Source of the DNA: Calothrix sp. PCC 7103 | GTDB taxonomy: Bacteria; Cyanobacteriota; Cyanobacteriia; Cyanobacteriales; Nostocaceae | Direction of reading: 5' to 3' | NCBI RefSeq assembly: GCF_000331305.1 | Contig: NZ_KB217478.1 | Coordinates: 5,615,595-5,679,594, forward strand | DNA: 64,000 bases | Shown: in pieces, positions 1-64,000 of the stretch | Numbering within the stretch: position 1 is the first letter of the stretch | Layout: the number at the start of each line of letters is the position of its first letter | Translations under genes and position numbers: made by a program | Notes under the pieces: model-generated | What the model was told of the DNA's origin: nothing | Seen by the model: the letters and a program-made list of their open reading frames with translations, nothing else | The model's database searches: none

Positions 1-1
1 G

Positions 2-1339
2 GCGCCTGTAGTTTCATTTCTAACTTATGCTGATGTCGGTGGTGTCGATGAACCAAATGGACAAACTGGTGTAGCACACTTTTTAGAACACTTGGCATTT
101 AAAGGCACAACACGTATTGGTACAATCGACTACAAAGCCGAAAAACCGCTACTTGATAAATTAGAACAGCTAGACTCACAAATCCGTGCGGCAAAAGCTG
201 CGAAAAAAACGGATGAGGTGGAAAAACTACAAGCACAGTTCAACTCTGTAGAGTCACAAGCAGTTAAACTCGTTAAGCAAAACGAATTAGGGCAAATAGT
301 TGAACAAGCAGGTGGAGTTGGTTTAAATGCCAATACCTCTACCGAAGCAACTCGTTATTTATACAGCTTTCCTGCAAATAAATTAGAGTTGTGGATGTCG
401 TTAGAGTCAGAAAGATTTTTAGAACCTGTACTCGGTCGCGAATTTTACAAGGAGAAACAGGTAATTTTAGAAGAACGTCGGTTACGGGTAGAGAATTCAC
501 CTATCGGGTTAATGATAGAGAAATTCGTTGACGCAGCGTATAAGGTTCATCCTTATCGGCGCCCTGTAATTGGTTATGACGAAGATATTCGCAATTTAAC
601 ACCTGCTAATATTAGAGATTTCTTTGCAACATATTATGTGCCAAGTAATTTGACAATAGCTGTGGTTGGTGATGTTAACCCAGCACAGGTAAAACAACTT
701 GCACAAATTTACTTTGGACGCTATAAGTCTAGCCCTAAACCAAAGTCTAAAATTGCTGCTGAACCGAAACAAAGCCAAACACGCGAAGTAACAGTCAATT
801 TCCCCTCACAACCTTGGTATTTAGAAGGATATCATCGTCCAGCTATTACGCACCCTGATGAAGCGGTATATAACATTATTGGCAGGTTGTTAAGTGATGG
901 ACGCACTTCAAGGTTGTATAAATCTTTGGTTGAGGAGAAAAGGTTAGCGCTTGCGGCACAAGGTTTTAGCGGTTTCCCTGGCGATAAATACCCAAATTTG
1001 ATGTTATTTTACGCGCTTACTGCTCCTGGACGTTCGGTTGATGAGGTTGCGACTTCGTTAAGGGCAGAAATTGAGCGTTTGAAAACTGAACCTGTAACTG
1101 AAGCTGAGTTAAAGCGGGTGAAAACTCAAGCGCGTGCTGAGTTGATAGAGGCGCTTGATTCTAATATGGGTATGGCGCAACAGTTGTTGGAGTATGAGGT
1201 CAAGACTGGTTCGTGGCGAAATTTGTTTAAACAGTTGGGACGGTTGGAAGCTGTAGGTGCTAGGGATGTGCAGAGAGTTGCGAGAGCTACTTTTACACCG
1301 CAGAACCGAACTATTGGTAAGTTGTTACCAAAAAGTTAG
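2..1339 (+). CDS. M16 family zinc metallopeptidase, catalytic subunit (5'-truncated by window edge)
   Basis: The frame is open from base 2, so the gene starts before the window. The zinc-binding inverted motif HFLEH (HxxEH) is encoded at 77-91, upstream of any usable start inside the window, and the third-ligand region (EERR) is near 470. A charged, probably coiled insert of about 50 residues follows the zinc motif, as I recall for some cyanobacterial members. M16 enzymes (pitrilysin/processing-peptidase family) degrade or process peptides in a clam-shell chamber, often as a heterodimer with an inactive partner. The next gene downstream is such a partner, so the two probably form one operon and one enzyme. 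A secretory signal, expected for this family, would lie outside the window. The family assignment is firm; the substrate is unknown. Confidence 0.93.
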   Translation, partial: APVVSFLTYADVGGVDEPNGQTGVAHFLEHLAFKGTTRIGTIDYKAEKPLLDKLEQLDSQIRAAKAAKKTDEVEKLQAQFNSVESQAVKLVKQNELGQIVEQAGGVGLNANTSTEATRYLYSFPANKLELWMSLESERFLEPVLGREFYKEKQVILEERRLRVENSPIGLMIEKFVDAAYKVHPYRRPVIGYDEDIRNLTPANIRDFFATYYVPSNLTIAVVGDVNPAQVKQLAQIYFGRYKSSPKPKSKIAAEPKQSQTREVTVNFPSQPWYLEGYHRPAITHPDEAVYNIIGRLLSDGRTSRLYKSLVEEKRLALAAQGFSGFPGDKYPNLMLFYALTAPGRSVDEVATSLRAEIERLKTEPVTEAELKRVKTQARAELIEALDSNMGMAQQLLEYEVKTGSWRNLFKQLGRLEAVGARDVQRVARATFTPQNRTIGKLLPKS

Positions 1340-1384
1340 TAGGAAGAAAACGAACCGCAAAGTACGCAAAGGACGCAAAGGAAG
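1340..1384 (+). repeat. ACGCAAAG-type short repeat between the two M16 genes
   Basis: The spacer contains the duplicated octamer ACGCAAAG (in GTACGCAAAGGACGCAAAGG), resembling a short repeat scattered through Nostocales intergenic regions. Its last bases, AAAGGA, sit 3-4 nt before the ATG at 1385, so the repeat appears to supply the Shine-Dalgarno sequence of the second M16 gene. That role is inferred from position only. Confidence 0.5.
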
Positions 1385-2857: not shown

Positions 2858-2869
2858 CAACAAATAGAC

Positions 2870-2910
2870 CGGATGTAACGGATGGTTTATCTGTTGATCC
2901 GTTACATCCG
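2870..2910. terminator. 14-bp perfect hairpin (CGGATGTAACGGAT arms) between convergent genes
   Basis: CGGATGTAACGGAT (2870-2883) is exactly complementary to 2897-2910 with a 13-nt loop. It lies between the convergent M16 and glycosyltransferase genes and extends into the end of the latter, encoding its last residues and stop. The same word recurs at 22640-22675 and in the element at 49775-49920, so it is a dispersed repeat doubling as a probable terminator. Confidence 0.6.
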
Positions 2911-4041
2911 TTTTGTCCGTTGCAAAATATCTCCAAACCACTGAAGAAATCTGGCGCCCAAAGCGTCGAGTGAAAATTCTGTCTCAGCTTGTTTTCTACA
3001 TTCATAACGGTCGATACTATCTAAACGTTTAACAGCGTCTATTAAACCTGTTACACTATCAGGCTCTACTAAAAAACCTGTTTTGCCATCTTTGACTATT
3101 TCCGCAGGGCCACCACGCGCGTAAGATATTACCGGAACACCACATGCAAGCGCTTCTATTGCTACATTACCAAACGCTTCTACCCACCTTGGCGCCATTA
3201 ATAAACCTTTGCACTCACGCACAAGAAGCTGCATTTTATCAGTTGATAGAAATCCTAAATACTCAATAGGCGCCCCTTGATAATCGTTTATAATTTTTTG
3301 CCAGTATGCTTCATCTTGAATTTTACCCATTATTTTTAACGGTATATTCGTCTGTGCTGCTACTGCTACCGCATCTTCTAAACCCTTTTCAGGTGAAATT
3401 CTTCCTAAAATTGCCAATTGTTCTTTGGGTTCGGCGCAAAATTGATATAGCGATAAATCAATACCACTGCTTAAGTAATATAACGGAGGAGTTAATGAAG
3501 GAAAAGTGGCGCCTTGCGAAGGAGTGTAAAATCCAATTGTGCCAGGATATAAGTTGGAGATTTGAGCAATAACTTTATCGAGAGCATTACTAAGCGAACC
3601 CATACTAACAAAGTGAGCTATCGGAGTTTGAAAAAACGGTGTGAGGTAAAATGGCAACCAATCGTAAGCAAAATTTACAATTAAGTCATACTCGTTTTGA
3701 ACTGAGCGTGCGTATTCCCACATATTCGCCAATAGCGAGTTATCAGGCATAGTTATAGGGGTATCACGTTCTTGAATTTGAGCAATAATCTGTAAATTGC
3801 CAGTAATTTCAACTATATTGAAAATATCTCGATTCCACAACGAACCAGAGGGAGCAACAATTTGCAGTGTATGACCTTGCTCTATAAAGTATTTAGCAAT
3901 GTTGTATAAACTTAGTTCAACACCTCCACCCAGTCCAGTTCCAAGTCCTCCGACTGGGGTTGAGACGAAAAGTAACTTCAAACGCTTGGGTAATGGTGAT
4001 ATATTCTGCATGGTACTTGAAACATCAAGGTAAAATTTCAT
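2902..4041 (-). CDS. GT4-family glycosyltransferase, UDP-glucose:tetrahydrobiopterin glucosyltransferase-like
   Basis: The protein is about 370 aa with two Rossmann-like halves. The N-terminus has the glycine-rich FVSTPVGGLGTGLGGGVEL segment (about residues 25-43), which I recognise from cyanobacterial tetrahydrobiopterin glucosyltransferases (BGluT). The C-terminal half has the GT4 nucleotide-sugar signature EAFGNVAIEALACG (E-x7-E type, about residues 285-298). It probably transfers glucose from UDP-glucose to a small soluble acceptor in the cytoplasm. The ATG at 4041 lacks a clear ribosome site; an internal ATG at 4011 is an alternative. The last codons and stop come from a dispersed repeat (2870-2910). 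The family is firm; the acceptor is inferred from similarity of one motif region. Confidence 0.75.
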   Translation of the reverse strand: MKFYLDVSSTMQNISPLPKRLKLLFVSTPVGGLGTGLGGGVELSLYNIAKYFIEQGHTLQIVAPSGSLWNRDIFNIVEITGNLQIIAQIQERDTPITMPDNSLLANMWEYARSVQNEYDLIVNFAYDWLPFYLTPFFQTPIAHFVSMGSLSNALDKVIAQISNLYPGTIGFYTPSQGATFPSLTPPLYYLSSGIDLSLYQFCAEPKEQLAILGRISPEKGLEDAVAVAAQTNIPLKIMGKIQDEAYWQKIINDYQGAPIEYLGFLSTDKMQLLVRECKGLLMAPRWVEAFGNVAIEALACGVPVISYARGGPAEIVKDGKTGFLVEPDSVTGLIDAVKRLDSIDRYECRKQAETEFSLDALGARFLQWFGDILQRTKRM

Positions 4042-4044
4042 TTT

Positions 4045-4506
4045 ATGACGAAACGATTCGGAATTAACTTGGTATGGGCGCCGTTGTTAGGGTTGTTATT
4101 CTCTACAAGCGCAAAAGCTGATTTTAAAGGTAGTCTTAATGTTGAAATCGACGGTTTGAGAAATAACGCAGGTCAAGTTTGTATCACTCTTTTTGGCAGC
4201 AGCAAAGGATTTCCAAGTGAGGGAAAAAAAGCTCTACAAGATAAATGCTTCAAAATTACAGAAATTCCCTTAAATATTAAATTTAACCAACTAAAAGCAG
4301 GTAGTTACGCTGTTGTTTTATTGCACGATGAAAATGGCACTAAAACTATGGAAATGGACAGCTTAGGAATGCCACGTGAAGGTTTTGGATTTTCTCAAAA
4401 CCCAGAAATTACAAATCGGGCGCCGAAATTTAGCGAATCAGCATTCTTTATTGCAGGTCCTGAAACTAATATCAAAATCAATATAAAATATATGTCAGGA
4501 TTTTAA
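4045..4506 (+). CDS. DUF2141 domain secreted protein
   Basis: The 153-aa product begins with a signal peptide (hydrophobic WAPLLGLLFSTS, likely cleavage after AKA near residue 25). The rest is a compact beta-rich domain with the DUF2141 pattern: an early cysteine pair around VCITLF and DKCFK, then YAVVLLHDENG, and MPREGFGFS near the end. DUF2141 proteins are exported proteins of unknown function. The gene is divergent from the glycosyltransferase, with at most about 35 bp between starts, so their promoters must overlap. A dispersed GTAGAGAC hairpin follows at 4523. Confidence 0.82.
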   Translation: MTKRFGINLVWAPLLGLLFSTSAKADFKGSLNVEIDGLRNNAGQVCITLFGSSKGFPSEGKKALQDKCFKITEIPLNIKFNQLKAGSYAVVLLHDENGTKTMEMDSLGMPREGFGFSQNPEITNRAPKFSESAFFIAGPETNIKINIKYMSGF

Positions 4507-4522
4507 TTTATTTCACAATTAC

Positions 4523-4550
4523 GTAGAGACGCGATTTAATCGCGTCTCTA
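4523..4550. repeat. GTAGAGAC short dispersed hairpin repeat, copy 1
   Basis: An interrupted palindrome with arms GTAGAGACGCGATT / AATCGCGTCTCTA. Nine intact or degenerate copies occur in this window (4523, 14965, 16901, 29945, 39583, 52036, 53955, 54935, 57812). It lies just after the DUF2141 stop and could form a terminator-like stem. Confidence 0.8.
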
Positions 4551-4583
4551 ACAACGAATTTATATGAAACGCTAATAATTCTG

Positions 4584-4904
4584 ATGAACATTAACTTAAG
4601 TAACCATCCAATCTGGCAAGAATTTACAGAAATACTTAATAAAATTGATTTAGATGCACTTGTTGCAAACCATCTGAAAGCTTGCAATTATAAAGTGATT
4701 GGATACCAAGATGAGAATGATTTTTATGAGGAAATTGAATTTATTACCCCAATTGAAGCAGAGTTTATCAGTGGTTCCTTAAATTCTTCAAACTCATTTG
4801 AGAATCGAACTGAAATAATGTCATCATTCGGCATCAATTCTACTCCACAGTTCGCTGATTGGTCTAGTTTGACCAGCTTTTGCTTGCTGAAATCCTCTTT
4901 TTAA
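4584..4904 (+). CDS. Short hypothetical protein, doubtful, 3' half antisense to the next gene
   Basis: A 106-codon frame. The first 80 codons encode an acidic, helical-looking sequence (IWQEFTEILNKIDLDALV, then EEIEFI) with plausible composition. The last 27 codons lie entirely on the complement of the better-supported small gene at 4824-5072 and look non-coding. I read this as a small gene whose true 3' end has been lost, or a chance frame. No family recognised. Confidence 0.35.
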   Translation: MNINLSNHPIWQEFTEILNKIDLDALVANHLKACNYKVIGYQDENDFYEEIEFITPIEAEFISGSLNSSNSFENRTEIMSSFGINSTPQFADWSSLTSFCLLKSSF

Positions 4905-5072
4905 AGAAGCTTTAACATCCTCTATAGGCGTATCATCGGGATCATTTTCTTCTTGTTCTGTAAACAATACTATAACTCGTACTCGATTCGAGTTATTTTC
5001 TGTTTGAATGGGTTCATCCAAAATTAGGTTTCCGTTTTGGTCAATGCTGGCATTTACTTCAACAGCTTTCAT
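4824..5072 (-). CDS. Small acidic conserved cyanobacterial protein (possible antitoxin-like)
   Basis: The 82-aa product begins MKAVEVNASIDQNGNLILDEP, followed by a beta strand (VRVIVLF), an acidic turn (EENDPDDTP) and an amphipathic helix ending in PISELW. This layout matches a very common cyanobacterial small-protein family that often sits directly upstream of a toxin-like or nuclease-like gene. Here no partner follows on the minus strand: the downstream stretch is the complement of the doubtful ORF at 4584. It may therefore be a solitary remnant of a two-gene module. The pairing is recalled, not shown here. Confidence 0.65.
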   Translation of the reverse strand: MKAVEVNASIDQNGNLILDEPIQTENNSNRVRVIVLFTEQEENDPDDTPIEDVKASLKRGFQQAKAGQTRPISELWSRIDAE

Positions 5073-5123
5073 ATAAAGTAGGCGCCTCTATTTTCCAATA
5101 TTTTAGCTTGTGAAAAGTTAAAA

Positions 5124-6359
5124 TTATTCTTCTGGCGAAGTATCTGGCGCCAGCGAGCGAATTCGATTCATTTGTGATAGTGCGTACTTTGCTGTTGCTT
5201 GTACATTCGCGTCGTTATCGTGGGTAGCGTGATATAACATTTGACTTATTTGTGTCATCATGTCGTACACGCGCGTTAAATCACGAATTGCGTTTTGTCG
5301 AACTTCTGGACTTTCATCTTGGAGTGACATTGCTAACGCGCGGTTCATTGGTTTAAGGGTACGAGTACCAATTTCAGATAAAGCTGCTAATATCAAGCTG
5401 CGCTGTTGCGAGTCAGCGTCTATCATTATATCTACGAGCGGTTGAATTGCGCGTGAGTCTCCTTGCTGTCCTAAATCCCAAATTGCTTTGCGCCGTTTGT
5501 TTGGGTCGGTACTACGAAGGTCTTTAACTAATTCGTCAACAATGTTAACTTTGGCAAGACGAGAAGTTGTTTCTGGCGCCAGTAATTCGCTTGAAGTTAC
5601 ATTTTTGTCATACAAATCGTTATGTAAACCATTTTGCGGTTCTGGCTCAACTGTTGACTCAATAACTGGCTCAAAATCTTGGATAATTGTTTGTTTTTGT
5701 GGTGGTAAAGCCATTACCTTGGGTTCTTGTGGCTCGATATGGCTTAAATCTTTGTATGTTGTCACTCCTTCACCATAGTCTGTACTTAAGACTTCTGAGT
5801 TTATAACTTTGAAACCACCTATATCTGGTTTTGGTGGGCTGAATTTTCGTAATAAGTAAGCAATGGCGCCAGTTGTTCCTACTAACCCCAATCCAACTAG
5901 TGCCCACCAAAATATACCTCTTCCACCCTCCGAAGGCGCCTTGGTAGTTGCAGTTGGACTAGCTGTTGGTGTCGGTTGCGTTTTCTGTAAAACGGCAGCA
6001 TCGAGTTTTGCACGAGTCGTGGCGCCGAAAATACCATCTGCTGTTAAATTATTGTCTGCTTGAAACCTTGATACTGCTATCCGCGTACTAACACCATAAT
6101 CGCCATCTATGTCATCAGTATATAACCCTAACTCTTTGAGTTTGGTTTGCAATGCTTTAACTTCCGCACCTGAATTACCAGGTCTTAATAAACGCTGGTT
6201 ACTTGTTTCAGCATTTGTGCTGCTTGTTGAATTCGTTGGTGTTGCTTGTGCTAATTTGACAGCATCAGGCAGCTTTTGATTTGATAGGGCAATTTGACTT
6301 GTGCTAAACCCAGCAAGCAAACAGCTAGTAATCAGTATGGAAGAACCGCATAGCCTCAT
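5124..6359 (-). CDS. Membrane protein: peptidoglycan-binding domain plus cytoplasmic HEAT repeats
   Basis: The 411-aa protein has a signal/anchor N-terminus, then a PG_binding_1 domain at about residues 55-115 (LLRPGNSGAEVKALQTKL, DGIFGATTRAKLD). A low-complexity Thr/Pro/Ala linker follows, then one membrane span at about 148-170 (WWALVGLGLVGTTGAIAYLL) with a basic RKF after it. A second linker leads to HEAT/PBS-type helical repeats at about 268-400 (NKRRKAIWDLGQQGDSRAIQPL). The predicted topology is peptidoglycan binding outside and protein-binding HEAT repeats inside. It may link the cell wall to a cytoplasmic partner. It stands alone, transcribed from the 200-bp region shared with nothing obvious. 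Confidence 0.85.
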   Translation of the reverse strand: MRLCGSSILITSCLLAGFSTSQIALSNQKLPDAVKLAQATPTNSTSSTNAETSNQRLLRPGNSGAEVKALQTKLKELGLYTDDIDGDYGVSTRIAVSRFQADNNLTADGIFGATTRAKLDAAVLQKTQPTPTASPTATTKAPSEGGRGIFWWALVGLGLVGTTGAIAYLLRKFSPPKPDIGGFKVINSEVLSTDYGEGVTTYKDLSHIEPQEPKVMALPPQKQTIIQDFEPVIESTVEPEPQNGLHNDLYDKNVTSSELLAPETTSRLAKVNIVDELVKDLRSTDPNKRRKAIWDLGQQGDSRAIQPLVDIMIDADSQQRSLILAALSEIGTRTLKPMNRALAMSLQDESPEVRQNAIRDLTRVYDMMTQISQMLYHATHDNDANVQATAKYALSQMNRIRSLAPDTSPEE

Positions 6360-6557
6360 ATCAGAAAGTTTGAGTCAGTACATGTATTGTAAATTACCGA
6401 TTAATACGATAACTTCATTTGTAAGTAAATGTTAACTTTTATCTTGACAGAAAAATTTTATTGGCGCCTTGAATCAAATAAATCATCAGATTTATGATTT
6501 CGGAACCTAAAATCGCCCGTGCGTAATTAAGATATCACCCCAACTCAGTAGCTACAC

Positions 6558-7610
6558 TCAAGAACGCATTGCTTCCGACTCTGTATGCTTTACAGGCACG
6601 GTTAAAGTAGTTTGTTGCGGTGCGCTTATTTCCTTAACGGGGATTTTTGTTTTGGTGAGCGCTAGGGTATCACGTTGGTTAATCAGGTAAATACTAATTA
6701 ACGTTAAACCGACACCTGTCCATTGTATAGAGTTTAAAACTTCTCCGAGCAATAAATTACCGAAACATAAGGCAAATACTGGCGTTAGAAAAGTTAACGA
6801 ACTCAAAGATGTCAAATTACCGCTTGAAGCAAAATAGAAAAACAAAGCGTATGCGATTGCACTTCCAAAAACTGTGGCGTAACTGAGCGCTATCCAATCA
6901 GAACTTACTAAGTTAGACCATTGGTGTGTTTCAGTAACCGCAGAAATTCCCCATAATGGCAAGCCACCTATAATCATATGCCATCCAGTTGCCATTACTG
7001 GGTCTGCATGTTTTGTGACGTACCTAATCAAAACTGTTCCCGCTGCCATTGATAAAGCAGCTAGCAGCATCAACCATTCTCCACTTTCAAACAGTGAGTA
7101 AGGTGATAGTAACAATGATGTCGGCTCAAAAGTAACGTCACTTGAAATTAAGCTCAGAATTAATTGCTCAGGTAAGCCTATAAAACTAATACCCGCAACA
7201 CCTAGACTTAAGCCCAACCATCCCCACAGTCCTATACGTTCTTTGAATAGCCATAGTGACATCAGCGCAACTGCCAAGGGTTGTGAGTCAATCATCACCG
7301 AACCTAAGCCAGCGCCTGTACGTACTAATCCTTGAGCGAGGAATCCTTGAAACATCGCTCCATCTATCAAGGCAAATAGCGTAATCCATAACCAGGCTTT
7401 TGTAGAGCGTGGTTGAGGTTTACCCATTAGGGTGCCTGCAATTAAAATCATTACACCTGCTGGTATTATTCGTACCCCAGCCATAAACATCGGCGTAGTA
7501 TGGTCAATTACACCTTTCATTGCCACCATAGCCGTTCCCCAGAGGAAAAACGGCGCAATTAAAAGTATTGGAGCTAGGGGAAGGCGTGATGCACGCTCGT
7601 TCAGTTGCAT
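6558..7610 (-). CDS. EamA/DMT-superfamily transporter
   Basis: The 350-aa polytopic protein has about ten hydrophobic segments in two homologous five-helix EamA halves. The first half starts ILLIAPFFLWGTAMVAMKGVI and the second LLAALSMAAGTVLIRYVTKH. Members of the drug/metabolite transporter superfamily export small metabolites such as amino acids across the inner membrane. A 40-residue hydrophilic tail (about 310-350) is predicted cytoplasmic. It reads away from the broken acyltransferase gene and has no partner that hints at its substrate. The ATG at 7610 precedes the first helix directly. Confidence 0.88.
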   Translation of the reverse strand: MQLNERASRLPLAPILLIAPFFLWGTAMVAMKGVIDHTTPMFMAGVRIIPAGVMILIAGTLMGKPQPRSTKAWLWITLFALIDGAMFQGFLAQGLVRTGAGLGSVMIDSQPLAVALMSLWLFKERIGLWGWLGLSLGVAGISFIGLPEQLILSLISSDVTFEPTSLLLSPYSLFESGEWLMLLAALSMAAGTVLIRYVTKHADPVMATGWHMIIGGLPLWGISAVTETHQWSNLVSSDWIALSYATVFGSAIAYALFFYFASSGNLTSLSSLTFLTPVFALCFGNLLLGEVLNSIQWTGVGLTLISIYLINQRDTLALTKTKIPVKEISAPQQTTLTVPVKHTESEAMRS

Positions 7611-15774: not shown

Positions 15775-17332
15775 TATATTGTCCCCTTGAGAATATCAAA
15801 TCTATCAGTAGACGCACGCCAATCACTTTTAATTTGGTCAATCAGCTATTCAACCCATACATCTCCTTTTAGGAGTATTCCAGATTATCTAATTATCTAT
15901 CTAAAGATAGATGTCATTTAGATTCAATTTTAGTAGTCTGTCAATTGTTAAATGGTATACTTGACAAACTAGGGTTGAGAATAGAACCACAATGTTAATT
16001 TAGATAACAATGTGTAGAGACTGACTTTGTATTCGTCTCTAATTTCAGTCCTATATAGTGTTCCCAAACAGTTGCCGAAACTAACAGATTAATTAAAAAA
16101 ATTTCTATTTTTTTGGCTGATGCAGATGGAACCCTTACGGTATAAGCTTTTTAAACTCAATACCAGTGCCATGTTTTACAATTACTACTTATGTAAGTAA
16201 GCTAAACAGGCGCCTTAATGCTATAAAGAGTTAATATACATGAACTCTCTAACAGGAAAGAAACCTATGAAGCTGATAACAACTTGATGCACTAACCTCA
16301 GAACCAAAACCTTCGTTGAAAGATTAATATATTACTTAGCTCTACTCTGGCTTGTACAGAGGGGTAAGACCACTCATTTTAATTTTTTAGGTATTATAAA
16401 TTACAATCATTACAAACTTTCGATTTGCTATTGTAAAGTTACGCAACGCACTTGATTATGAGCATTAGAATATATTATGCTCAGTCAATTACCATACATA
16501 AAAGTTACTTTACTCGCAATCGAAGAATATTTGATACCCATATATAACTCTGTCAAAAAATAAATATAAACATACAGTTTCTATCCCTGAAAGTTTCTTT
16601 AATTTGTCAAATCACCCTAAGAACTTATTCGAGGCACCAGCATCAAATACAACTCGATATTCAATCAAATCTCGCCAACTAAGCTTTAATTAACCGAATT
16701 GAAAAACGCACTGTTAACTTAGTTTGTAACTTGATTAAAGAAAATTCAAGTACTCACAATATACTTTTTATTCAATATCAACAAATATCAGTCTTTAGGT
16801 ATAGACTTATGTTTACTGAAGGAGTTGTAGTTAGCTTTATTTCTCTTCAAAAAACTAAATCATATCATGTCCGGTTGATTACCCATAATTACCACGTCAC
16901 GTAGAGACGCGATTAATCGCGTCTCTACAATGATTTTATTATGGTTACGCTCCCGGACATGATATCAAATATTAAATCCAAAAAAAAATATTAAGAGAAG
17001 CCCACAAAATAATTGATCCAATGTTGTCATGCGCTCGTGTAGCGTAAGCGTAACGTAAAGCGTAGCTTTTCCCGTAGGGTAGCATCTTAAAGCAGAACTT
17101 GTGTACTTAAAGAGATTCTTCACTAGCCTACGGCAAATCCTCCGGATTACGTTCAGAATGACCGAAAAGCATTTTTTTTCGTGGAGTTCTCTAAACTGTT
17201 TGCTTAACTACAATAACCCAGTTTCTGGTTTTTAAAGAGATAAATATTTTAAATGACTAGAGGTTGTAAAGAAAAATATTAAATAATGTAATTTGTATCA
17301 AGGCAGACTAGTTTGCCTGCCTATAGAACTAA
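15775..17332. other. 1.56-kb ORF-poor, AT-rich region with repeats
   Basis: No frame of convincing coding character in either strand. Contents I can support are a 104-bp inverted-repeat element at 16862-16965 and, near 17030-17085, GCGTAAGCGTAACG-type short repeats. One GGCGCC site lies at 16209. The composition suggests decayed DNA or untranslated leaders; no known RNA family was recognised. Confidence 0.55.
16862..16965 (+). mobile_element. 104-bp palindromic MITE-like element, copy A
   Basis: Ends ATATCATGTCCGG / CCGGACATGATAT form 13-bp perfect terminal inverted repeats, and a GTAGAGAC hairpin (16901-16928) sits at the centre. The reverse complement of 57775-57878 is identical over all 104 bases. 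It has no coding capacity. Confidence 0.85.
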
Positions 17333-29905: not shown

Positions 29906-29944
29906 TTAGTAGAAAGTGCTGAGTTTTGAGTGCTGAGTGCGCTC

Positions 29945-29992
29945 GTAGAGACGCGATTAATTGTGTACAGACGCGATTAATCACGTCTCTAC
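29945..29992. repeat. Compound GTAGAGAC dispersed repeat
   Basis: GTAGAGACGCGATTAATTG is followed by a second ACGCGATTAATCACGTCTCTAC, giving one and a half copies of the hairpin downstream of petH. It is flanked by heptamer-like GTGCTGAGT repeats at 29916-29940. Confidence 0.75.
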
Positions 29993-30148
29993 TGGTATGG
30001 TGGTCGTGTGCCACCCTATAATATCTTTTATTGTTAATAAAAATTATCGAGTTCTTTTTTCTGATTCTGATTGTTGACTTTATCAAAAACTCATCACTCA
30101 GCACCAGCGCACTCATTACTCATCACTTTATTCTGGGGTGTTTTATTT

Positions 30149-45030: not shown

Positions 45031-45714
45031 GTGAAAGCTCCACTTTCTAATCACGGCAGTAACAGCAGTAACAATTCCGAATCTCAGCTAACGCGCGATA
45101 TCCGGCGCCTTGAGCGAGATGTACTGCGTATGGGCGCCTTAACAGAGAAATCTTTTCGTCTTAGTCATCAAGCATTGTTCGCTCGCGACCTTTCAGCAGC
45201 CGAAGAACTGCCTCAAATCGATAAAAGAATCGACAGTTTCTATCGGCAAATTGAGTTAGAGTGTACATTGATAATGACAAGTCTTGCACCTACCGATAGA
45301 GATTTAAGGTGTTTGAGTGCATTTATGCAGCTAGTGCGAGATTTAGAGCGAATTGGCGATTATGCTGAAGACTTGGGAGAAATAGCAGTCAAAATATTTC
45401 CTTATCCTCAGCATCGTTTACTTCCAGAAATTGCGATGATGTCGCACCATGCACAAGCAATGTTGGCAACTAGTTTAGTGGCACTCGCCGATTTAGATGA
45501 AGTTAATGCACGTAGTATTAAATATCTTGATGACACAGTTGATAACGCTTATGAACGAGTTTATAACGCTCTGGCTCAACAACGCGATATTAGCGGCGCC
45601 TTAGAACCATATTTACTTTTAGGATTAGCAATTCGTTGCTTAGAGAGAATGGCAGACCATGCCACCAATATCGGTCAACGGGTCGCGTATATAGTCACAG
45701 GTCAACGTTCTTAA
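45031..45714 (+). CDS. phoU: Phosphate-signalling protein PhoU (SphU)
   Basis: The 227-aa all-helical protein has two PhoU repeats with metal-binding E/DxxxD motifs (RDLERIGDYAEDLGEIA and IRCLERMADHATNIGQRV). PhoU represses the sensor kinase when phosphate is plentiful. The frame is open from a TTG at 44983, 2 bp after the sphS stop; I prefer the GTG at 45031, which gives the usual length with a disordered Ser/Asn-rich start, but either is possible. Translational coupling to sphS is likely. No pst genes are in the window. Confidence 0.9.
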   Translation: MKAPLSNHGSNSSNNSESQLTRDIRRLERDVLRMGALTEKSFRLSHQALFARDLSAAEELPQIDKRIDSFYRQIELECTLIMTSLAPTDRDLRCLSAFMQLVRDLERIGDYAEDLGEIAVKIFPYPQHRLLPEIAMMSHHAQAMLATSLVALADLDEVNARSIKYLDDTVDNAYERVYNALAQQRDISGALEPYLLLGLAIRCLERMADHATNIGQRVAYIVTGQRS

Positions 45715-47300
45715 TAATCTTGTTATATTTAGCTGCGTATCGTATTGATTTATTAATTTATAGACAAATTACTCCTTAAGATAGATATCGGAAACAGTAC
45801 TTAATAAGCTATATTTGAAAAAATATTGTAATCTAGCTACTTTTAATAGTTTATTATTTTAGATAGAGTAGTAAAGTAATTTGTTATACATGCTTTGAAA
45901 GTTTATAGATACTATAAATAAATATATATATTAGTTACCTAATCTTTATAAAAAAGCGTAGTATTGTGATTTTCGAGTTTGAGTATTTGAATACAGCACC
46001 AAAAGTTACTTCAAATGTGAAGTAAATCTTAAGATATACATGTATGTTTTAAGTCTAAATTGCAACGGACTTAAATTTTGAATTCTACAATCATTACAAA
46101 ACAAGACTTTGGAGTGTTAGGTACTTGCCAGTTAAATTTGTTACTTAAGTTAAATATCGGTTAAATGACATACATTTTATGTAAAGCTTACCTATTCTTA
46201 ATCTTGCCAGATTAAATTAGCAGAGGCACCAATAAAGTGTTTCTGATGGCACTCATCGGTCTGGTACAATTACGAAGAACAGATATTGCTAACACAATGT
46301 TCTTACTTCTTCCAAAAGTTACATAAATAACTTTAGCGCCGGACAAAATGTGAGTGGATATTGATCATATCAGATAGTATTGGTGGTAGGAAATTTTTAT
46401 AAAAACATCAGGGAAAAATCAAATACGCTGATTCTGTGGATATTAAATGCCTACACAAGCATTTCTTAACCAGAGTAGGTGCCATTAAATTCAAGATGCA
46501 AACCTTACAACTAAATAGTTTGTTGCCATAAATAAAACCAATGTATAAAAGGTGACAGACAATGGCGTAAAAAAGCACAATAATGCGATTGAACGTCAAG
46601 CTCGTTACAAAAGAAGATTCACAAAAATATGTGAATCGTATCTTGGAGCGAAATATTACAGGTTATTGATTTCTTGTAAATTGAGGCACATTGTATGTGG
46701 TGAGCAGTTAGAAAATTAATAGTCGCTGCCACTGGGTACAACTTGCAATGAGTCTAAGTGAAAGTTTTTTCCAACTTTAACTTTGGCTGCATTGCGACAA
46801 ATCATTACTGTGAAGCATAAACTGCGCCATTCGGTTGAATCTCAGCAAAGTAATTATTTGATAATAATTCTCAAGTAATTTAAAATACATCAGGAAGGAC
46901 AAGTAATTTCCTGAGTAGCTCTTGCAAATGCAGTTTAAAGTAACAGGCTTTGAAACGTTTAAAGAAAAGCAGGTGTGTATTGAAGTGTTGCCGAGATAAA
47001 GATATCAACAATCAATCAGTTGCAGTTGCAGTTGCTAAATCGTTATTACAACTTAGCTTAATAAATGTGACTGCTAGATGACTAAAAAGTTTTGGTTGAT
47101 ATATTTCATTTCTATCAGGGTATTAAAGTATAAGGCTTTAGGCATCTATCTTTGGGTATAACCGTGCATTCGCGCGCCAGCTAAATTGCTAGATGTTCCT
47201 AAATGAATTCTGCCATTAGTAGGTTATTTAGGGCAGATCGCCAGGATACCTTCGACAAAGTTTAAATCCACAAAACACATTTATTTACCTATCCCCAACT
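45715..47300. other. 1.59-kb ORF-poor region upstream of the Crp-like regulator
   Basis: No coding-quality frame on either strand, very AT-rich, and no GGCGCC site although they average one per 640 bp elsewhere. It does not contain the dispersed hairpins found in other spacers. It may be a long untranslated leader or a regulatory-RNA region for the regulator at 47301, or decayed DNA; no RNA family was recognised. Confidence 0.5.
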
Positions 47301-47942
47301 ATGATGTATTCCACAAGCCGCAACACAAATGGTATTCCACAGAATTCAGCTACCAATACCAATACCAGTACAAATACATCTGGTTTGCAACAACGGTTAT
47401 TTACTCGTCGCGAAACAATTCCTGCACGTAATGACGTGTTATGGAAAATCGAGCGTGGCGCCGTTCGGACTTTGACATGGAGTGAAGATGGAACGTTCAT
47501 CACTTTGGGATATTGGGGACCTGGAGATTTAATAGGCTACCCCTTGTCACGTGTAAAGCCTTACCAAATTGAATGTCTGACCAGCGTTGAAGTTAGCGTC
47601 GTTCCTCCTCAGTTGTGGCATCAAGACATTAACTCATTCTTGTCACACATTCAGCAAGCCGAAGAGTTGTTGAGCATAGTACACCGTAAACCTATTTCTC
47701 TACGCTTGTGGCAATTCTTAGTATGGTTGAGTGAGAAATTTGGTCGTGATGTTGAGCAAGGTAAATTAATTGACCTCAATGTTACTCACCAAGAAATGGC
47801 TGAAGTATTAAATACTACTAGAGTCACGGTAACTCGTTTGTTGCAACAGTTTGAAGAAGAGAACACAATGATTCGTCACAAGCGTCGGATTATCTTACGT
47901 ACACCAGCAAATAGCAACCAGAATACCATTCAGCGAAAATAA
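47301..47942 (+). CDS. Crp/Fnr-family transcription regulator
   Basis: The 213-aa protein has a low-complexity Asn/Thr-rich N-terminus (residues 1-27), a shortened cyclic-nucleotide-binding-type beta-barrel (GAVRTLTWSEDGTFITLGYWGPGDLIGYPLS) and a C-terminal HTH_Crp domain with helix THQEMAEVLNTTRVTVTRLLQQ (about residues 158-179). The cNMP phosphate-binding Arg/Glu cassette is not evident, and there are no Fnr-type cysteines, so the effector is unknown. It precedes two porin genes in the same direction and may regulate them. The long ORF-free upstream region is notable. Confidence 0.86.
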   Translation: MMYSTSRNTNGIPQNSATNTNTSTNTSGLQQRLFTRRETIPARNDVLWKIERGAVRTLTWSEDGTFITLGYWGPGDLIGYPLSRVKPYQIECLTSVEVSVVPPQLWHQDINSFLSHIQQAEELLSIVHRKPISLRLWQFLVWLSEKFGRDVEQGKLIDLNVTHQEMAEVLNTTRVTVTRLLQQFEEENTMIRHKRRIILRTPANSNQNTIQRK

Positions 47943-52035: not shown

Positions 52036-52063
52036 GTAGAGACGTGATTAATCACGTCTCTAC
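52036..52063. repeat. GTAGAGAC dispersed hairpin repeat (GTGATTAATCAC centre)
   Basis: A perfect 28-base palindrome with a G-to-T compensatory pair relative to the consensus, so base pairing is conserved although sequence is not. Confidence 0.8.
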
Positions 52064-54895: not shown

Positions 54896-55001
54896 GATAT
54901 AGCAGTCCTAAATCATTCGTGAAAACCGTGCGTTGTAGAGACGCGATTAATCGCGTCTCTACGGGGATAAATTTTTACAATTCATATAGGAATGCTATAT
55001 C
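54896..55001. mobile_element. 106-bp palindromic element GATATAGCA...TGCTATATC with GTAGAGAC core
   Basis: The ends GATATAGCA / TGCTATATC and inner TCCTAAAT/ATATAGGA arms surround the GTAGAGAC hairpin (54935-54962). Same architecture as the 104-bp elements but with unrelated ends. Confidence 0.65.
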
Positions 55002-57774: not shown

Positions 57775-57878
57775 ATATCATGTCCGGGAGCGTAACCATA
57801 ATAAAATCATTGTAGAGACGCGATTAATCGCGTCTCTACGTGACGTGGTAATTATGGGTAATCAACCGGACATGATAT
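57775..57878 (-). mobile_element. 104-bp palindromic MITE-like element, copy B
   Basis: The exact reverse complement of 16862-16965 over all 104 bases, including the outer 13-bp ends and the central GTAGAGAC hairpin (57812-57839). Flanking sequences are unrelated, so the boundaries are exact. Confidence 0.87.
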
Positions 57879-58646: not shown

Positions 58647-58697
58647 AAAATTCCTACCTCAATGTAATTAAAAGATATCCAAAATCTCCACAATTCT

Positions 58698-58762: not shown

Positions 58763-58811
58763 GATAATGCTCATTTCACTATTCCACTTTTACTATGTAG
58801 ACAAAATACTG

Positions 58812-60923
58812 TTAAATTAAACGCTCTAAAATTAAATGATTACGTTCTGTTAATTTTGCTTGCCAATTTGGTTCAACTACAATCGTGCTAATTTTCTCTA
58901 CGATAATCGCAGGCCCGTTTACATTGTCCCCTGGTTGTAAATGGTCGCGTCGATAAACTGGAGCATCATGCCATTTATCTAAGGCAAACATTTGTACAGT
59001 ATCTACACTTTGAGGCGCCTCCGAGTCAGAGCGAGTACGACTAATTAAAGGTTCTTCAGGAGTATCCATTTTTTGAATAACTTCCACACTGACCGACTCA
59101 ACAATTAAATTCTTGCCAGATTGAATAAAACCGTAGCGCGTTTTATGTTCAACCTCAAATTCTTCCTGCATAACTGTTACATCTAAATTAAAGTTAACAG
59201 TCAGTATTGAATTAGTGCCTTCATACTTCAAATTAACTTTTTGCACTACCTCTAGTTCCCTCCCCTCTTTTAGGGGAGGGTTAGAAAGGCGTAACTCACC
59301 CCTACATTGCTTCTCCAAACTCTCCATCAACACCTGTAACTCTTGAACCAACCCCTGACTTAAAATTTGTTCTACGGCGCCTTCACGAAGCGCACGCACA
59401 TCAGCAAGTCCCATTCCATAAGCTGAAAGTACTCCTGCATAAGGATGTAAAAATATCTTTGTCATCCCCAATGTATCAGCTATTAAACATGCTACCTGCG
59501 CTCCGGCGCCTCCAAAACAGCAAAGTACATACTGCGTTACATCATATCCACGTTGTAAACTAATCTTTTTAATAGCGGAAGCCATACTCTCTACAGCAAT
59601 GGCAATAAATCCAGCAGCTACTTGTTCAGGGGTACTATTATTTCCTGTCTTTGTTTTTATCTCTTGTGCTAGCTGTGTAAATTTCTCAATGACAATATTT
59701 TTATCTAAAGGTAAATTTCCATCTACTCCAAATACGGAAGGAAAATATTGCGGATGAATTTTGCCTAACATTACATTCGCGTCTGTTACAGAAGTAGGAC
59801 CACCGCGTCGATAACAAGCAGGTCCAGGATTTGAGCGAGCAGATTCTGGACCAACACGATAACTGGAACCATCGAAAAATAAGATTGAACCACCACCTGC
59901 TGCGATAGTATGAATATCTAATACAGGTACTCGCATTCTGGCGCCTGCTATTTCGTTTTCTAATTGTCGTTCATATTCTCCTTTAAAATGGGCAACATCA
60001 GTACTAGTACCTCCCATATCAAAGGTGATGACTTTAGAAAAACCTCCACGCTTGCTTGTTTGAACGGCGCCGACTATACCACCAGCAGGCCCACTTAATA
60101 TACTATCCTTACCTTGAAATTGTTCTGCGGCAACTAATCCCCCGTCAGATTTCATAAACATTAATCTAACTCCAGGTAGATGACTTGCGACTTGATTGAC
60201 ATAATGTCGCAAAATTGGAGTTAAATAAGCATCAACAACAGTTGTGTCTCCTCGACTAACTAGTTTCATCAAAGGACTTACTTGATGTGATATAGATATT
60301 TGTGTAAATCCAATATCTGAAGCTAATTGTGCAACTTGTTGTTCGTGTTGAGGATAACGGTAAGCGTGCATGAGTACTATTCCACAGCTACGAATGCCTG
60401 AATTATAAGCTGCTTGCAAGTCTTTTTTGACTGCTTCGATATTAACAGGCAAAAGTTCTTGACCTTGAGCATTGTAACGTTCGTCTACTTCGATAACCTG
60501 TTCGTAAAGCATCGTTGGTAAAACAATACGACGGGCAAAAATATCAGGACGGTTTTGATAGCCTATTCGTAAAGCATCTTTAAACCCTTTAGTAATAGCA
60601 AGAACAACGCGCGAACCGTTTCTTTCTAACAGTGCATTTGTTGCTACTGTTGTTCCCATTTTTACTACTTCTATTTGTTCGCAGGGGATAGGCGCCTCAC
60701 CAGAAAGCCCTATAATATCTCTTATTCCCTGAATTGCGGCATCCTCGTATAATTCAGGATTCTCGGAGAGAAGCTTATAAACGATTACCCACTGATTATT
60801 TTCTAATGACACAATTAAAAACCGCTCAGGATGATTTGAGAGGTTATCTATAATTTCTCTACTATCTGTAACAGCTACTAGGTCTGTAAATGTACCACCC
60901 CGGTCAGCAAAAACTTTTAACAT
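58812..60923 (-). CDS. Hydantoinase A/oxoprolinase-family subunit
   Basis: The 703-aa protein starts VFADRGGTFTDLVAV, the phosphate-binding loop of the ASKHA-like HyuA fold. It contains VKMGTTVATNALLERNG, GLVAAEQFQGKDSILSGPAGG, VITFDMGGTSTDVAHF and LCCFGGAGAQVACLIA. It supplies the ATP-binding half of a hydantoinase or 5-oxoprolinase with the 56018 product. The length is normal. Eight GGCGCC sites lie in it. A LSNPPLKEGRELE stretch (about residue 550) reads as a translated CCCTCCCCTCTTTTAGGGG repeat inserted in the gene. Confidence 0.92.
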   Translation of the reverse strand: MLKVFADRGGTFTDLVAVTDSREIIDNLSNHPERFLIVSLENNQWVIVYKLLSENPELYEDAAIQGIRDIIGLSGEAPIPCEQIEVVKMGTTVATNALLERNGSRVVLAITKGFKDALRIGYQNRPDIFARRIVLPTMLYEQVIEVDERYNAQGQELLPVNIEAVKKDLQAAYNSGIRSCGIVLMHAYRYPQHEQQVAQLASDIGFTQISISHQVSPLMKLVSRGDTTVVDAYLTPILRHYVNQVASHLPGVRLMFMKSDGGLVAAEQFQGKDSILSGPAGGIVGAVQTSKRGGFSKVITFDMGGTSTDVAHFKGEYERQLENEIAGARMRVPVLDIHTIAAGGGSILFFDGSSYRVGPESARSNPGPACYRRGGPTSVTDANVMLGKIHPQYFPSVFGVDGNLPLDKNIVIEKFTQLAQEIKTKTGNNSTPEQVAAGFIAIAVESMASAIKKISLQRGYDVTQYVLCCFGGAGAQVACLIADTLGMTKIFLHPYAGVLSAYGMGLADVRALREGAVEQILSQGLVQELQVLMESLEKQCRGELRLSNPPLKEGRELEVVQKVNLKYEGTNSILTVNFNLDVTVMQEEFEVEHKTRYGFIQSGKNLIVESVSVEVIQKMDTPEEPLISRTRSDSEAPQSVDTVQMFALDKWHDAPVYRRDHLQPGDNVNGPAIIVEKISTIVVEPNWQAKLTERNHLILERLI

Positions 60924-60949
60924 AACTATACACCCATCGCACTATAGAA

Positions 60950-61048
60950 CGGTTCTTACTCTGTGTCCTCTGCGTCTCTGTGGTGAAATTATGCATTTTG
61001 AAATAATTTTTTTACCAAAGAGGAACAGAGGACACAGAGAGAAAAGAT
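60950..61048. repeat. CTCTGTGTCCTCTG inverted repeat between genes
   Basis: TCTGTGTCCTCTG near 60960 and CAGAGGACACAGA at 61026-61038 are inverted copies around a 60-bp centre, a repeat type widespread in Nostocales spacers. Confidence 0.65.
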
Positions 61049-62797
61049 TTACCTACACCGATAAACTTTGTACTCGTAACCGTTTACTGCTGGTAAGGGT
61101 TTACTATTAAGCGAACAAGTTTCTAGTTCTTCGGGGTCGTCGGCAAAAAAGTTGACCCTCCATAAATCAAATGGACGAGGTAGTGTTTTTACAGCTTTGC
61201 CTAACGCTTTTGATGAAGTGTCAGGATTATCATCTTGATGTGCTAGTAGAAATTTTGTATTAGTTAATTTCTGATTTTTTTTCAATTCCCTCGCGACACC
61301 CATCATTTCCCCTATATGTACATGGGTTTTTTGTGTGGTGGCAATCAATACTGGTTGACTAGATACTTTTTGAATGATACCCATGAATAAATCAGGACGA
61401 TAGTATTTTTGATAGCCTAAGTTATTAACAACTGTTATACCGCTCGCTAGTGACATCAGCCAAATTATTAACACGGCTTTTTTCCCTGATATCCGCCATT
61501 TAAACATTTTGACTGTTTCTAGGTGCCAGCAGATAGCTAAACTTGCTCCCACTAGTATTATTACTGCCGGAAAATAAATAAAGTTGTAGCGGGCACCACG
61601 TGTTAAATCAATACCTAAAAAGTAGGTAAAGATAGCAAATAACACAAGTGCGCTGATTATAAATCCAATTAAGACCTTTGTGATAAATCGGTTTTCTGGT
61701 TCATTAAGTCTAGCTTTTAAACCGCGAACTAATATTGGTGTTGCCCAAATAAATATTACTAGCATTACAACTCCCGAAGCAATAACCACAGCTAACCGTG
61801 GTGACTCAACGGGCAGTAGCGAAATCATTGTAATCCAAGCTGCTAAACCTTGAAAAATAGGACTCAACCAAGCAAGTCCAACTCTATCACCTTGAATCCA
61901 CTCGGTTAATTTGCCACCATAGCTATTCTGTAAAAATACGGGTATCCAGACGGTGCCTGCTATTGCTGTACCCGCTGCAACAGCGAATATACGGTACCAT
62001 ACGGTTGCTAATTCTTTATTTTTTATTTGTTTTACTAAAAAGAAAAGTAATACAATCGCCTCACAACAAAGAGTTAAAACAAAGAAATAATGTGTAGCTA
62101 TACCCAAAGCGTTAATAACAATCCATGTTAGTGCGACTTTGAGAGGTAATTGACTACGACTTTGAACATGGCGAACGGCACTGATAAAACAAGCAAGCGT
62201 TGCCATTACCCACAAAATAGGTAAAGTATAATGCCGTGTTTCTTGAGCCAAAAATATTGCGTAGGGTGAAGTCGCCATAAAAGCAGCAGCTAAATGACTG
62301 ACTAAGCGTGAACGATACAACTTAGAGCTTAGTACATAAATTGCTGGAACACTCATAGCACCAAATAGTGCAGCCAACGCACGGGCGGCCCAAACCGATA
62401 CCAATCCCGCATCTGTTGGAAATAGCCGCAGCCACAAATGCGTCAATATAAAATAAAGCGGCGGGTGATTACTTTCTGTAAATAAATGCTTCAAGACATC
62501 TTGTACACCAGCACCAGCACGCGGTTGCAGTGGCTGTAAAAGTGTATCAATACCAATAGGTTGGTCGAGCGGTACATTTAAGAAGCTATTACCAAGACTA
62601 AATACCAAAGTTGAAAACTCATCAGTCCAAGGTGGTTTAGCATCCAAATTAATGAAGCGTAAAATAGTACCAACAGCAAACCAAAATAAAAGTAGAAAGT
62701 GCTGAGTGCTGAGTGCTGAGTATTGAGTGCTGAGTATTGAGTGCTGAGTATTGAGTGAAGAGTGAGAGAAAAATTTTTTCAGCATAGACTTCAGCAT
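61049..62797 (-). CDS. GT39-type membrane glycosyltransferase
   Basis: The 582-aa polytopic protein has about 11-12 helices and a periplasmic N-terminal loop with the catalytic Asp-Glu (PPWTDEFSTL, about residue 58) and HPPLYFILTHLWLR, the pattern of GT39/ArnT and related GT-C enzymes using polyprenyl-phosphate sugars. A soluble C-terminal part (about 455-582) follows. Codons 10-33 are translated heptamer repeats (LSTQYSALSTQH), so the true start is uncertain. The donor is probably made by the GT2 enzyme encoded 90 bp upstream. Confidence 0.88.
   Translation of the reverse strand: MLKSMLKKFFSHSSLNTQHSILSTQYSALSTQHFLLLFWFAVGTILRFINLDAKPPWTDEFSTLVFSLGNSFLNVPLDQPIGIDTLLQPLQPRAGAGVQDVLKHLFTESNHPPLYFILTHLWLRLFPTDAGLVSVWAARALAALFGAMSVPAIYVLSSKLYRSRLVSHLAAAFMATSPYAIFLAQETRHYTLPILWVMATLACFISAVRHVQSRSQLPLKVALTWIVINALGIATHYFFVLTLCCEAIVLLFFLVKQIKNKELATVWYRIFAVAAGTAIAGTVWIPVFLQNSYGGKLTEWIQGDRVGLAWLSPIFQGLAAWITMISLLPVESPRLAVVIASGVVMLVIFIWATPILVRGLKARLNEPENRFITKVLIGFIISALVLFAIFTYFLGIDLTRGARYNFIYFPAVIILVGASLAICWHLETVKMFKWRISGKKAVLIIWLMSLASGITVVNNLGYQKYYRPDLFMGIIQKVSSQPVLIATTQKTHVHIGEMMGVARELKKNQKLTNTKFLLAHQDDNPDTSSKALGKAVKTLPRPFDLWRVNFFADDPEELETCSLNSKPLPAVNGYEYKVYRCR
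62699..62757. repeat. Heptameric STRR (GTGCTGA/GTATTGA)n inside the glycosyltransferase 5' end
   Basis: About eight tandem heptamers alternating GTGCTGA and GTATTGA. Because seven is not a multiple of three, the repeat is read in all three phases, giving the LSTQYSA pattern in the frame. Confidence 0.85.
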
Positions 62798-62885
62798 AGG
62801 GTAGAGAACAGCAAGGAGCAGTAAAAATAGAATAACTTAGACATCTAAATCAGTAATAAAGTGTGAAATCAGCACTCAGCACTTT

Positions 62886-64000
62886 TCACTTCTTCACATC
62901 AGTCACACGCCAACTGAGCTTGAGATTAACCCAAAAGTTCCACAAAACCACCACTGCTATCGCAATTAATTTTGCCAGATACTCGTTGACCTTCAAAACG
63001 TTATAGAGCAAGTTTACTATTAAAGCTTGTAAAATCACTCCAGCCAAACAAATAACGTTGAATTTTAAAAATCTTTTTAAACGGGCGCCTTTTCCAGTTT
63101 GCCAACGTGAGATATCGCGGAATGTCCAAATATCATTCCATAGGAAGTTATTAATGATTGCCATTTCCGCCGAAAGTATAGTGCTGCGTGTCAGTCCTAG
63201 CTGGAAAATTTGCCGCAGTATATAAAATACCGTCAAATCTACTCCTAAACCGCTAAAACCAACTACGCCAAACCGCAAAAATCGACCAATCGGAAAGTTA
63301 AAACGTTTATTTATGCGTCCCAATTGTCCTGTAGTTAGACGCAAGCGGATTAAATGGCGTAGGTAATCTATATACTGTTTCCATGTGACTTTGCTTTCAC
63401 CTTCGACACGCTCGTTAAAAACATATCCTACTTCAGCAATTTCCTGAATATCACCTCGTCCAATTATTTCCAACAGTATTTTGTAACCAACCGGATGAAG
63501 TGTAATTTCAGCTATACTATCTCTCCGCACCATAAAATAGCCGCTCATTGGGTCAGACACTCTACCTAAAACCCCTGGTAAAATAATCAAACCTAATACT
63601 TGGGCGCCTCGTGATAAAAATCTTCTGACTACACTCCAACTGCTTACCCCACCTCCATCTACATGACGACTACCAACCGCTAAGTCGGCGCCTTCTTCGA
63701 CAGCACGTAGCAATTGCAACATCACATGCGGTGGATGCTGTAAATCTCCGTCGATAACTCCCAAAATACGTCCCTTTGCCACTTGCCAACCGCGAATTAC
63801 CGCTTGTGATAGTCCTCGTTCTCCAACTCGACGCATTACCCGTAATTGGGGGTATGAAGCCATTAAAGAAGCGGCAACCTCCCAAGTACCGTCAGGACTA
63901 TCATCATCTACAACAACTAGCTCGTAATCTCCATATATCGACGAATCGAGTAACTTCGTCAACACCTGTATAACGTTTGTTATATTGTCGCGCTCGTTAT
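62886..64000 (-). CDS. Dolichyl/polyprenyl-phosphate sugar synthase (GT2) fused to GtrA domain (5'-truncated)
   Basis: The frame is open to the window edge, reading NERDNI just before it, so the start is outside. The GT2 domain has VVDDDSPDGTWEVA and GVIDGDLQHPP (DxD-like) and WKQYIDYLRHLIRLR. From about 230 residues in, a four-helix GtrA domain follows (FGVVGFSGLGVDLTVFYILR, VLWNFWVNLKLSW). The combination makes polyprenyl-phosphate mannose or glucose on the cytoplasmic face and may help flip it. The adjacent GT39-type enzyme would use the product. An operon is likely (88 bp spacing with heptamer repeats). Confidence 0.9.
   Translation of the reverse strand, partial: NERDNITNVIQVLTKLLDSSIYGDYELVVVDDDSPDGTWEVAASLMASYPQLRVMRRVGERGLSQAVIRGWQVAKGRILGVIDGDLQHPPHVMLQLLRAVEEGADLAVGSRHVDGGGVSSWSVVRRFLSRGAQVLGLIILPGVLGRVSDPMSGYFMVRRDSIAEITLHPVGYKILLEIIGRGDIQEIAEVGYVFNERVEGESKVTWKQYIDYLRHLIRLRLTTGQLGRINKRFNFPIGRFLRFGVVGFSGLGVDLTVFYILRQIFQLGLTRSTILSAEMAIINNFLWNDIWTFRDISRWQTGKGARLKRFLKFNVICLAGVILQALIVNLLYNVLKVNEYLAKLIAIAVVVLWNFWVNLKLSWRVTDVKK

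Follow-up and report, generated by a model that had tools for sequence, protein, structure and literature searches.

GGCGCC takes the place of HIP1 throughout a cyanobacterial genus and is accompanied by a putative solitary BsaHI-type methyltransferase

We analysed a 64,000-bp stretch of DNA from Calothrix sp. PCC 7103, hereafter the window, together with its source genome (G000; 11,584,393 bp in 12 contigs) and related genomes, with a focus on the hexamer GGCGCC and its relation to the highly iterated palindrome HIP1 (GCGATCGC). Why most cyanobacteria carry thousands of HIP1 copies is, to our knowledge, a long-open question. The window features concerned are the following.

1-64000, no strand: 100 GGCGCC sites by exact count, the first at 1-6 and the last at 63687-63692.
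30071-31444, plus strand: homoserine dehydrogenase gene with three GGCGCC sites (30225, 30473 and 31058), used as the anchor for fetching named relatives.
45595-47462, no strand: GGCGCC-free stretch singled out by the original prediction, an unremarkable gap with 1,862 bp between its flanking sites.
60691-63089, no strand: longest GGCGCC gap in the window, with 2,393 bp between its flanking sites and within random expectation.

The original prediction had estimated by eye about 100 GGCGCC copies in the window for some four expected; the count is exactly 100, and 100 dinucleotide shuffles of the same DNA yielded a mean of 5.25 and a maximum of 11. As also claimed, the sites occupy both coding (83/100) and non-coding (17/100) DNA, as judged from mechanically called open reading frames (ORFs) of at least 100 amino acids, with a non-coding density of 0.68 of the coding one. 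They are indeed spread over the window, but for a palindrome their stated presence on both strands is uninformative. The coefficient of variation of the gaps (0.98) is that of random placement (median 0.97), and the longest gap among 100 randomly placed points has a median of 3,143 bp; with spacing thus random, the idea that GGCGCC-free stretches such as 45.6-47.4 kb are acquired or decayed DNA was rejected. HIP1 is absent from the window, as had been noticed, but this says little because merely 0.29 copies are expected there.

The proposal that GGCGCC stands in place of HIP1 holds over the whole of G000. GGCGCC occurs 17,704 times (1,528/Mb, one per 654 bp), far above expectation, against 8 copies of the reversed control CCGCGG, whereas HIP1 is scarce outside the window too, with 163 copies in the genome (14.07/Mb). 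The genome combines two marks of the alternate-HIP class, namely gross over-representation of a GC-rich palindrome (about 500-2500/Mb) and low or near-absent HIP1, and does not show those of a classical HIP1 genome, a high GCGATCGC frequency together with a DmtC-like methyltransferase. In 382 kb of G000 outside the window, GGCGCC (662 copies vs 29.7 expected) shows the top ratio among the 64 palindromic hexamers, and GATC is strongly depleted (117 vs 902 expected). Of the 951 Gly-Ala codon pairs in mechanically called ORFs, 468 read GGCGCC, while codon usage predicts 21.9. Most one-base neighbours of GGCGCC are scarce in 446 kb, and only GGTGCC (65 vs 41.2) and GGCACC (60 vs 41.9) are in excess. 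Enrichment within the GRCGYC word set is limited to GGCGCC, the remaining words being depleted: GACGTC (3 vs 36.3 expected), GACGCC (7 vs 32.3) and GGCGTC (10 vs 32.0).

GGCGCC has already been published as the alternate HIP of Calothrix PCC 7103 by Elhai (2015; PMC4390886, here and below in the sections drawn on). The counts given there, 14/Mb for HIP1 and 159/Mb for CAGGCGCC, agree with those of G000 (14.07/Mb, and 1852 forward plus 1816 reverse copies of CAGGCGCC, on average 158/Mb), and the two are almost certainly the same genome. That account, based on one genome and 19 kb of Calothrix D253, further describes an extreme GATC shortage and two GRCGYC-type methyltransferases in this organism, and holds exceptional HIPs to be sporadic and non-persistent (PMC4390886).

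We placed G000 in a survey of 217 genomes of its family, namely 7 of its genus and 210 others, with genome sizes rounded. The genus includes Calothrix PCC 7716 (G065), Calothrix NIES-4105 (G062), Dulcicalothrix desertica PCC 7102 (G060) and the metagenome-assembled genome Calothrix FI2-JRJ7 (G064). All seven genus genomes are rich in GGCGCC (7,475-20,380 copies each, 1150-1711/Mb, with six of the seven species at 1511-1711/Mb), while the maximum among the other 210 is 111/Mb. HIP1 numbers only 31-163 per genus genome and mostly thousands in the others. GGCGCC numbers 22-35 in syntenic 21-kb pieces from six named relatives, all of these pieces being free of HIP1; the piece from Calothrix NIES-4101, the next relative by protein identity, holds no GGCGCC and 9 HIP1. 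Elhai's single-genome case hence extends to seven of seven genus species, which does not match the description of such HIPs as sporadic and not persisting in clades (PMC4390886, as far as drawn on). We found no paper on this genus-wide pattern in the open PMC literature, which lacks most subscription journals.

Among 388 genomes drawn across the class, further high GGCGCC counts occurred, mostly accompanied by high control counts; counts of this kind, mainly from family f16 (as many as 5,932 GGCGCC and 2,807 CCGCGG in 3.3 Mb), were put down to composition on the control count alone. Three genomes of the draw were sampled. Two of them, G562 (4 vs 3.8 expected in 19.8 kb) and G449 (11 vs 18.4 in 39.3 kb), were discarded as further GGCGCC genomes, both with abundant HIP1; the third, G436, is described below. 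A GGCGCC cluster in G004 was likewise dropped as genus-derived DNA: its GC content reaches 58%, it holds 51 GATC in 20 kb, and it gave no BLAST match to the genus DNA compared, which was part of those genomes. This GC-rich stretch (C4:76000-95999) contains a 3,521-amino-acid ORF with 11 of the 12 GGCGCC of that genome. As a separate observation, the 10.7-Mb family member G194 has weak HIP1 (535 copies), a DmtC-like gene and no dominant palindrome in 80 kb.

The original prediction had also expected a methyltransferase matching GGCGCC. Matches to the C5 methyltransferase family PF00145 number 15 in G000 and 74 in its six congeners; for the latter, 30 loci and 20 further stretches were retrieved, weak matches not all included. 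Among the ORFs retrieved, two methyltransferases, M5 and M10, were found in all seven genus genomes, and M10 also occurs in the HIP1 genomes G012 and G001 (72 and 67% identity). M3 and M7 were rejected as the HIP determinant with presence in 5/7 genus genomes each, and so were M1, M2, M8, M9 and M14, none of which the retrieved ORFs showed in all seven genomes; M11, with M11-like split matches in five congeners and none in G061; and M4, broken in G000. The M4 gene (G000 C7:7848143-7849318) has an in-frame stop in G000 and is open in congeners G060, G061 and G062. The remaining candidate lies outside the window.

C7:8004469-8005407 of G000: M5, C5 methyltransferase and candidate HIP determinant (PF00145 match of 219.6 bits, with the PCQ and ENV motifs).

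Of the 217 family genomes, 65 contain M5-like matches at E values up to 1e-30, including distant and partial ones. At 16 of the 23 non-genus loci retrieved the M5 homolog adjoins an ORF of one cluster, split in some; three of these ORFs were tested and match the endonuclease family RE_HindVP (PF09519) at about 1e-150, and the one examined carries the SPERRFD motif of the BsaHI/HgiDI/HindVP family (PMC2413257). In the alignment, and following the description in PMC2413257, the TL motif has an R eleven residues upstream and a G or A beside it, with RRG/RRA/RKA before ...PSPTI. Because of this HindVP-type neighbour in other genera and the surroundings of the TL motif, both likenesses to the BsaHI/HgiDI/HindV family (GRCGYC; PMC2413257), M5 looks like a BsaHI/HindV-type GRCGYC C5 methyltransferase. 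A gene expected to modify GGCGCC is thus present as foreseen, but its apparent specificity is for GRCGYC and not for GGCGCC itself.

The seven genus M5 genes form one clade (support 100/99), and M6 copies fall on other branches. No M6-like copy was found in G060 and G063, which leaves these two without a second GRCGYC methyltransferase such as Elhai describes (PMC4390886, as drawn on); the HIP can therefore be held without one. Unlike in the BsaHI/HgiDI/HindV systems (PMC2413257), no HindVP-type endonuclease accompanies M5 in the genus: the search for RE_HindVP gave 0/7 genus genomes and, as a positive control, 43 of 217 in the family (42 over the cut-off). Judged from these gene sequences, M5 is solitary in the genus and has been inherited vertically. 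It would be expected to methylate GGCGCC in vivo as GG(m5C)GCC (m5C, 5-methylcytosine). M.BsaHI methylates the central C of GRCGYC (PMC2413257), a datum absent from Elhai's account in the sections drawn on, according to which the methylated base is known for no enzyme of this specificity (PMC4390886).

To relate gene content to word frequency across the family, 51 non-genus genomes with a near full-length M5 homolog of at least 55% identity (including G105, with in-frame stops) were classed by endonuclease as near-full (24), none (14) or broken/partial (13, excluded), and compared with 150 genomes with neither gene, those with fragments only or the endonuclease alone being left out. Relatedness being ignored, the median is 0.69 GGCGCC/Mb in the 24 genomes with the complete pair and 5.09 in those with neither (P 4.5e-6), and 11.85 in the 14 methyltransferase-only genomes, not significantly different from neither (P 0.17). 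These medians tie the complete pair to GGCGCC avoidance, lifted by loss of the endonuclease. A DmtC-like C5 methyltransferase gene was found in 203 of the 210 non-genus genomes and in none of the seven genus genomes, for each of which the best 7 of up to 26 candidates were scored; the genus ORFs retrieved gave no match to it at 1e-60.

We consider it rather probable that GGCGCC is the HIP of the genus by an ancestral switch, with orphan M5 and a methylation-linked bias having built the sites; we infer that M5 is active, what precisely it recognises, how the events were ordered and by which process the sites arose. The genus ancestor would have lost HIP1 along with the DmtC-like methyltransferase, whose presumed target is CGATCG. 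M5, a BsaHI/HindV-type GRCGYC methyltransferase now without restriction partner, would have become fixed and vertically inherited. M5 would generate GG(m5C)GCC, and a methylation-linked bias, as in the G-m5C-directed mismatch repair that Elhai proposed for the origin of HIPs (PMC4390886), would raise GGCGCC, the single GRCGYC member in which both strands carry G-m5C, to a density of about one per 600 bp. The model predicts biased gain of the word from its one-base neighbours; in G000 these are depleted except for the central transitions, but on recent branches 0 gains from one-base ancestors were seen for 0.47 expected.

The recent history of the sites was followed in a 264-kb region of G000 aligned to parts of G060, G064 and G065, with G062 as the outgroup, that is, in one region, four ingroup species and one outgroup. 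Strict parsimony in the four lineages yielded 56 GGCGCC losses and 1 gain, and a looser count that does not require identical ancestral states gave 51 lineage-only absences and 12 lineage-only presences over 127 kb aligned four ways. Relative to a background with the same base, CG context and codon position, ancestral sites show more central transitions than expected (34 vs 23.4, P 0.02), fewer central transversions (1 vs 7.0) and non-central changes at 0.54 of the expected number (22 vs 40.8, P 0.001), for a total of 57 changes vs 71.2. An uncontrolled central C-to-T excess (34 vs 12.2, four lineages) was discarded as mostly due to codon position, 34 vs 23.4 being what remains. A comparison suggesting better conservation of GGCGCC than of flanking hexamers (NIES-4105: 187/236 vs 446/931) was withdrawn as biased, because sites were picked as present in the reference and flank changes counted on both branches, which overstates conservation; the polarised gain and loss counts replace it. 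Altogether, the data are compatible with methylation of the central C and with partly protected sites whose loss now outpaces their formation.

Several points weigh against the switch driven by orphan M5. Recent branches are nearly devoid of gains, so that the creating process was not caught at work, and the central C-to-T excess loses significance when only third codon positions are counted (P 0.17 vs other CG). M10 is present in 7/7 genus genomes as well. The DmtC-like gene is named from its phyletic pattern only, with CGATCG as presumed target, and its absence from the genus comes from the partial scoring mentioned above; moreover, seven non-genus genomes without it keep 2,878-6,883 HIP1. 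HIP1 is low without GGCGCC in G182 (30), G194 (535) and G191 (574), and the 14 genomes with an orphan enzyme have no GGCGCC HIP (at most 42.6/Mb). In G079, one of the seven genomes in which no DmtC-like gene was found, an M5 homolog occurs with no endonuclease, yet the counts are 6,883 HIP1 and 144 GGCGCC; an orphan M5 plus loss of the DmtC-like gene is therefore not sufficient for a GGCGCC HIP.

A second explanation shares the origin just described and differs on the present: the sites would be a relic, made once in the genus ancestor and now in near-neutral decay, partly by deamination of the methylated central C, and their density a fossil with no maintained set point. The 56 losses vs 1 gain (51 vs 12 in the loose count), the lack of gains from one-base ancestors (0 vs 0.47) and the total of 57 changes vs 71.2, which makes overall protection weak, all speak for it, and a decaying relic matches the recent branches at least as well as the biased switch does. 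However, non-central bases change at about half of the background rate, densities are similar in six of the seven species, and G000 DNA of the 264-kb region that cannot be aligned to NIES-4105 still holds 1.30 sites/kb vs 1.68 in aligned DNA. We hold the relic to be doubtful.

The same low rate at non-central bases (0.54 of background), along with persistence of the sites across the genus, could also reflect selection for the word as a functional signal in DNA uptake, recombination, segregation or regulation, methylation being secondary. Such a role is improbable, weaker as an explanation than the relic, given the random spacing in the window, the symmetry of the sites and recent branches that lose far more than they gain. 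Finally, many palindromes are near-absent from the genome and most one-base neighbours of GGCGCC are scarce, but that the excess is a side effect of base composition, of codon usage or of restriction acting against other palindromes is very hard to believe in view of 662 copies where 29.7 are expected in 382 kb, of 468/951 Gly-Ala pairs for 21.9 predicted and of named relatives with similar GC content that lack the GGCGCC excess, and composition as the cause is excluded.

Compared with known systems, GGCGCC resembles HIP1 in being a GC-rich palindrome found about once per kb in coding and non-coding DNA, and in its association with a putatively solitary methyltransferase (for HIP1, PMC4390886, as drawn on); it differs as a word, the GATC core of HIP1 being strongly depleted in G000. 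Other HIP1 replacements, rCCGGy in Oscillatoria PCC 10802 and GCsGC in Cyanothece PCC 7822, likewise pair a GC-rich word with a matching methyltransferase, with other words and in other organisms (PMC4390886).

A parallel case may exist in G436, from another family of the same order. The 87 kb of it examined contain 95 CGGCGCCG (3.9 expected), 57 CAGCGCCG (1.9) and 45 CGGCGCTG (2.0), against 1 CAGCGCTG (1.0) and 2 HIP1 (1.8). RGCGCY is the HaeII word. Of the congeners of G436, G424 and G462 show HIP1 at an ordinary level (20 in 24 kb and 7 in 12 kb), while G282 has no HIP1 in 36 kb and 500 GGCC for 246 expected; no M5-like enzyme was found in the G436 pieces examined. As a lead from small samples, G436 would carry a different alternate HIP, CRGCGCYG, in which enrichment of three of the four instances of a degenerate palindrome recalls the rCCGGy of Oscillatoria PCC 10802 (PMC4390886).

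Some side observations concern other words. In the 382 kb of G000, ACGCGT, CCATGG, CGTACG, GTCGAC, GTGCAC and TGCGCA do not occur, and TTCGAA (1 vs 124) and GCATGC (1 vs 80) nearly so. CGCGCG is also over-represented in the genus (142 vs 26 in G000, 252 vs 29 in G062, 127 vs 15 in G063), as is GCGCGC in several of the genus genomes sampled. An Eco29kI-type endonuclease adjoins a C5 methyltransferase in G000. Eco29kI-type enzymes cut CCGCGG and TdeIII-type enzymes GGNCC, and the former pair may explain the scarcity of CCGCGG (8 in G000). The window also holds an interspersed palindrome, AGAGACGCGATTAATCGCGTCTCT, in five copies, three exact and two with 2 mismatches, and a tandem array of heptamers (unit AGTGCTG/AGTATTG) at the start of a minus-strand ORF.

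16903-16926, 29967-29990, 52038-52061, 54937-54960 and 57814-57837, no strand: copies of AGAGACGCGATTAATCGCGTCTCT by sequence match.
62698-62764: heptamer array, partly common to 29915-29938.
61049-62797, minus strand: ORF whose start holds the array.

The core observation was thus already known for Calothrix PCC 7103 (PMC4390886, as drawn on); what is added here is its clade-wide persistence, the putative orphan BsaHI-type clade and, for recent branches, the surplus of losses over gains. Tentatively, and with less assurance than for the switch itself, we propose that HIP identity is a switchable heritable trait set by a solitary methyltransferase that places m5C in a GC step: the genus would have switched once from HIP1 to GGCGCC, kept the new word through speciation and now be losing it little by little as the methylated base is deaminated, and the switch would recur in the genus of G436. 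The genus-wide result corrects the published view, as given in those sections, that exceptional HIPs do not persist (PMC4390886). Several members of the genus are named culture-collection strains (PCC 7102, PCC 7716 and PCC 7103), a single small gene encodes the candidate enzyme, and the base predicted to be methylated is specified. A genus with a stably swapped HIP word offers a clean comparison for the HIP question.

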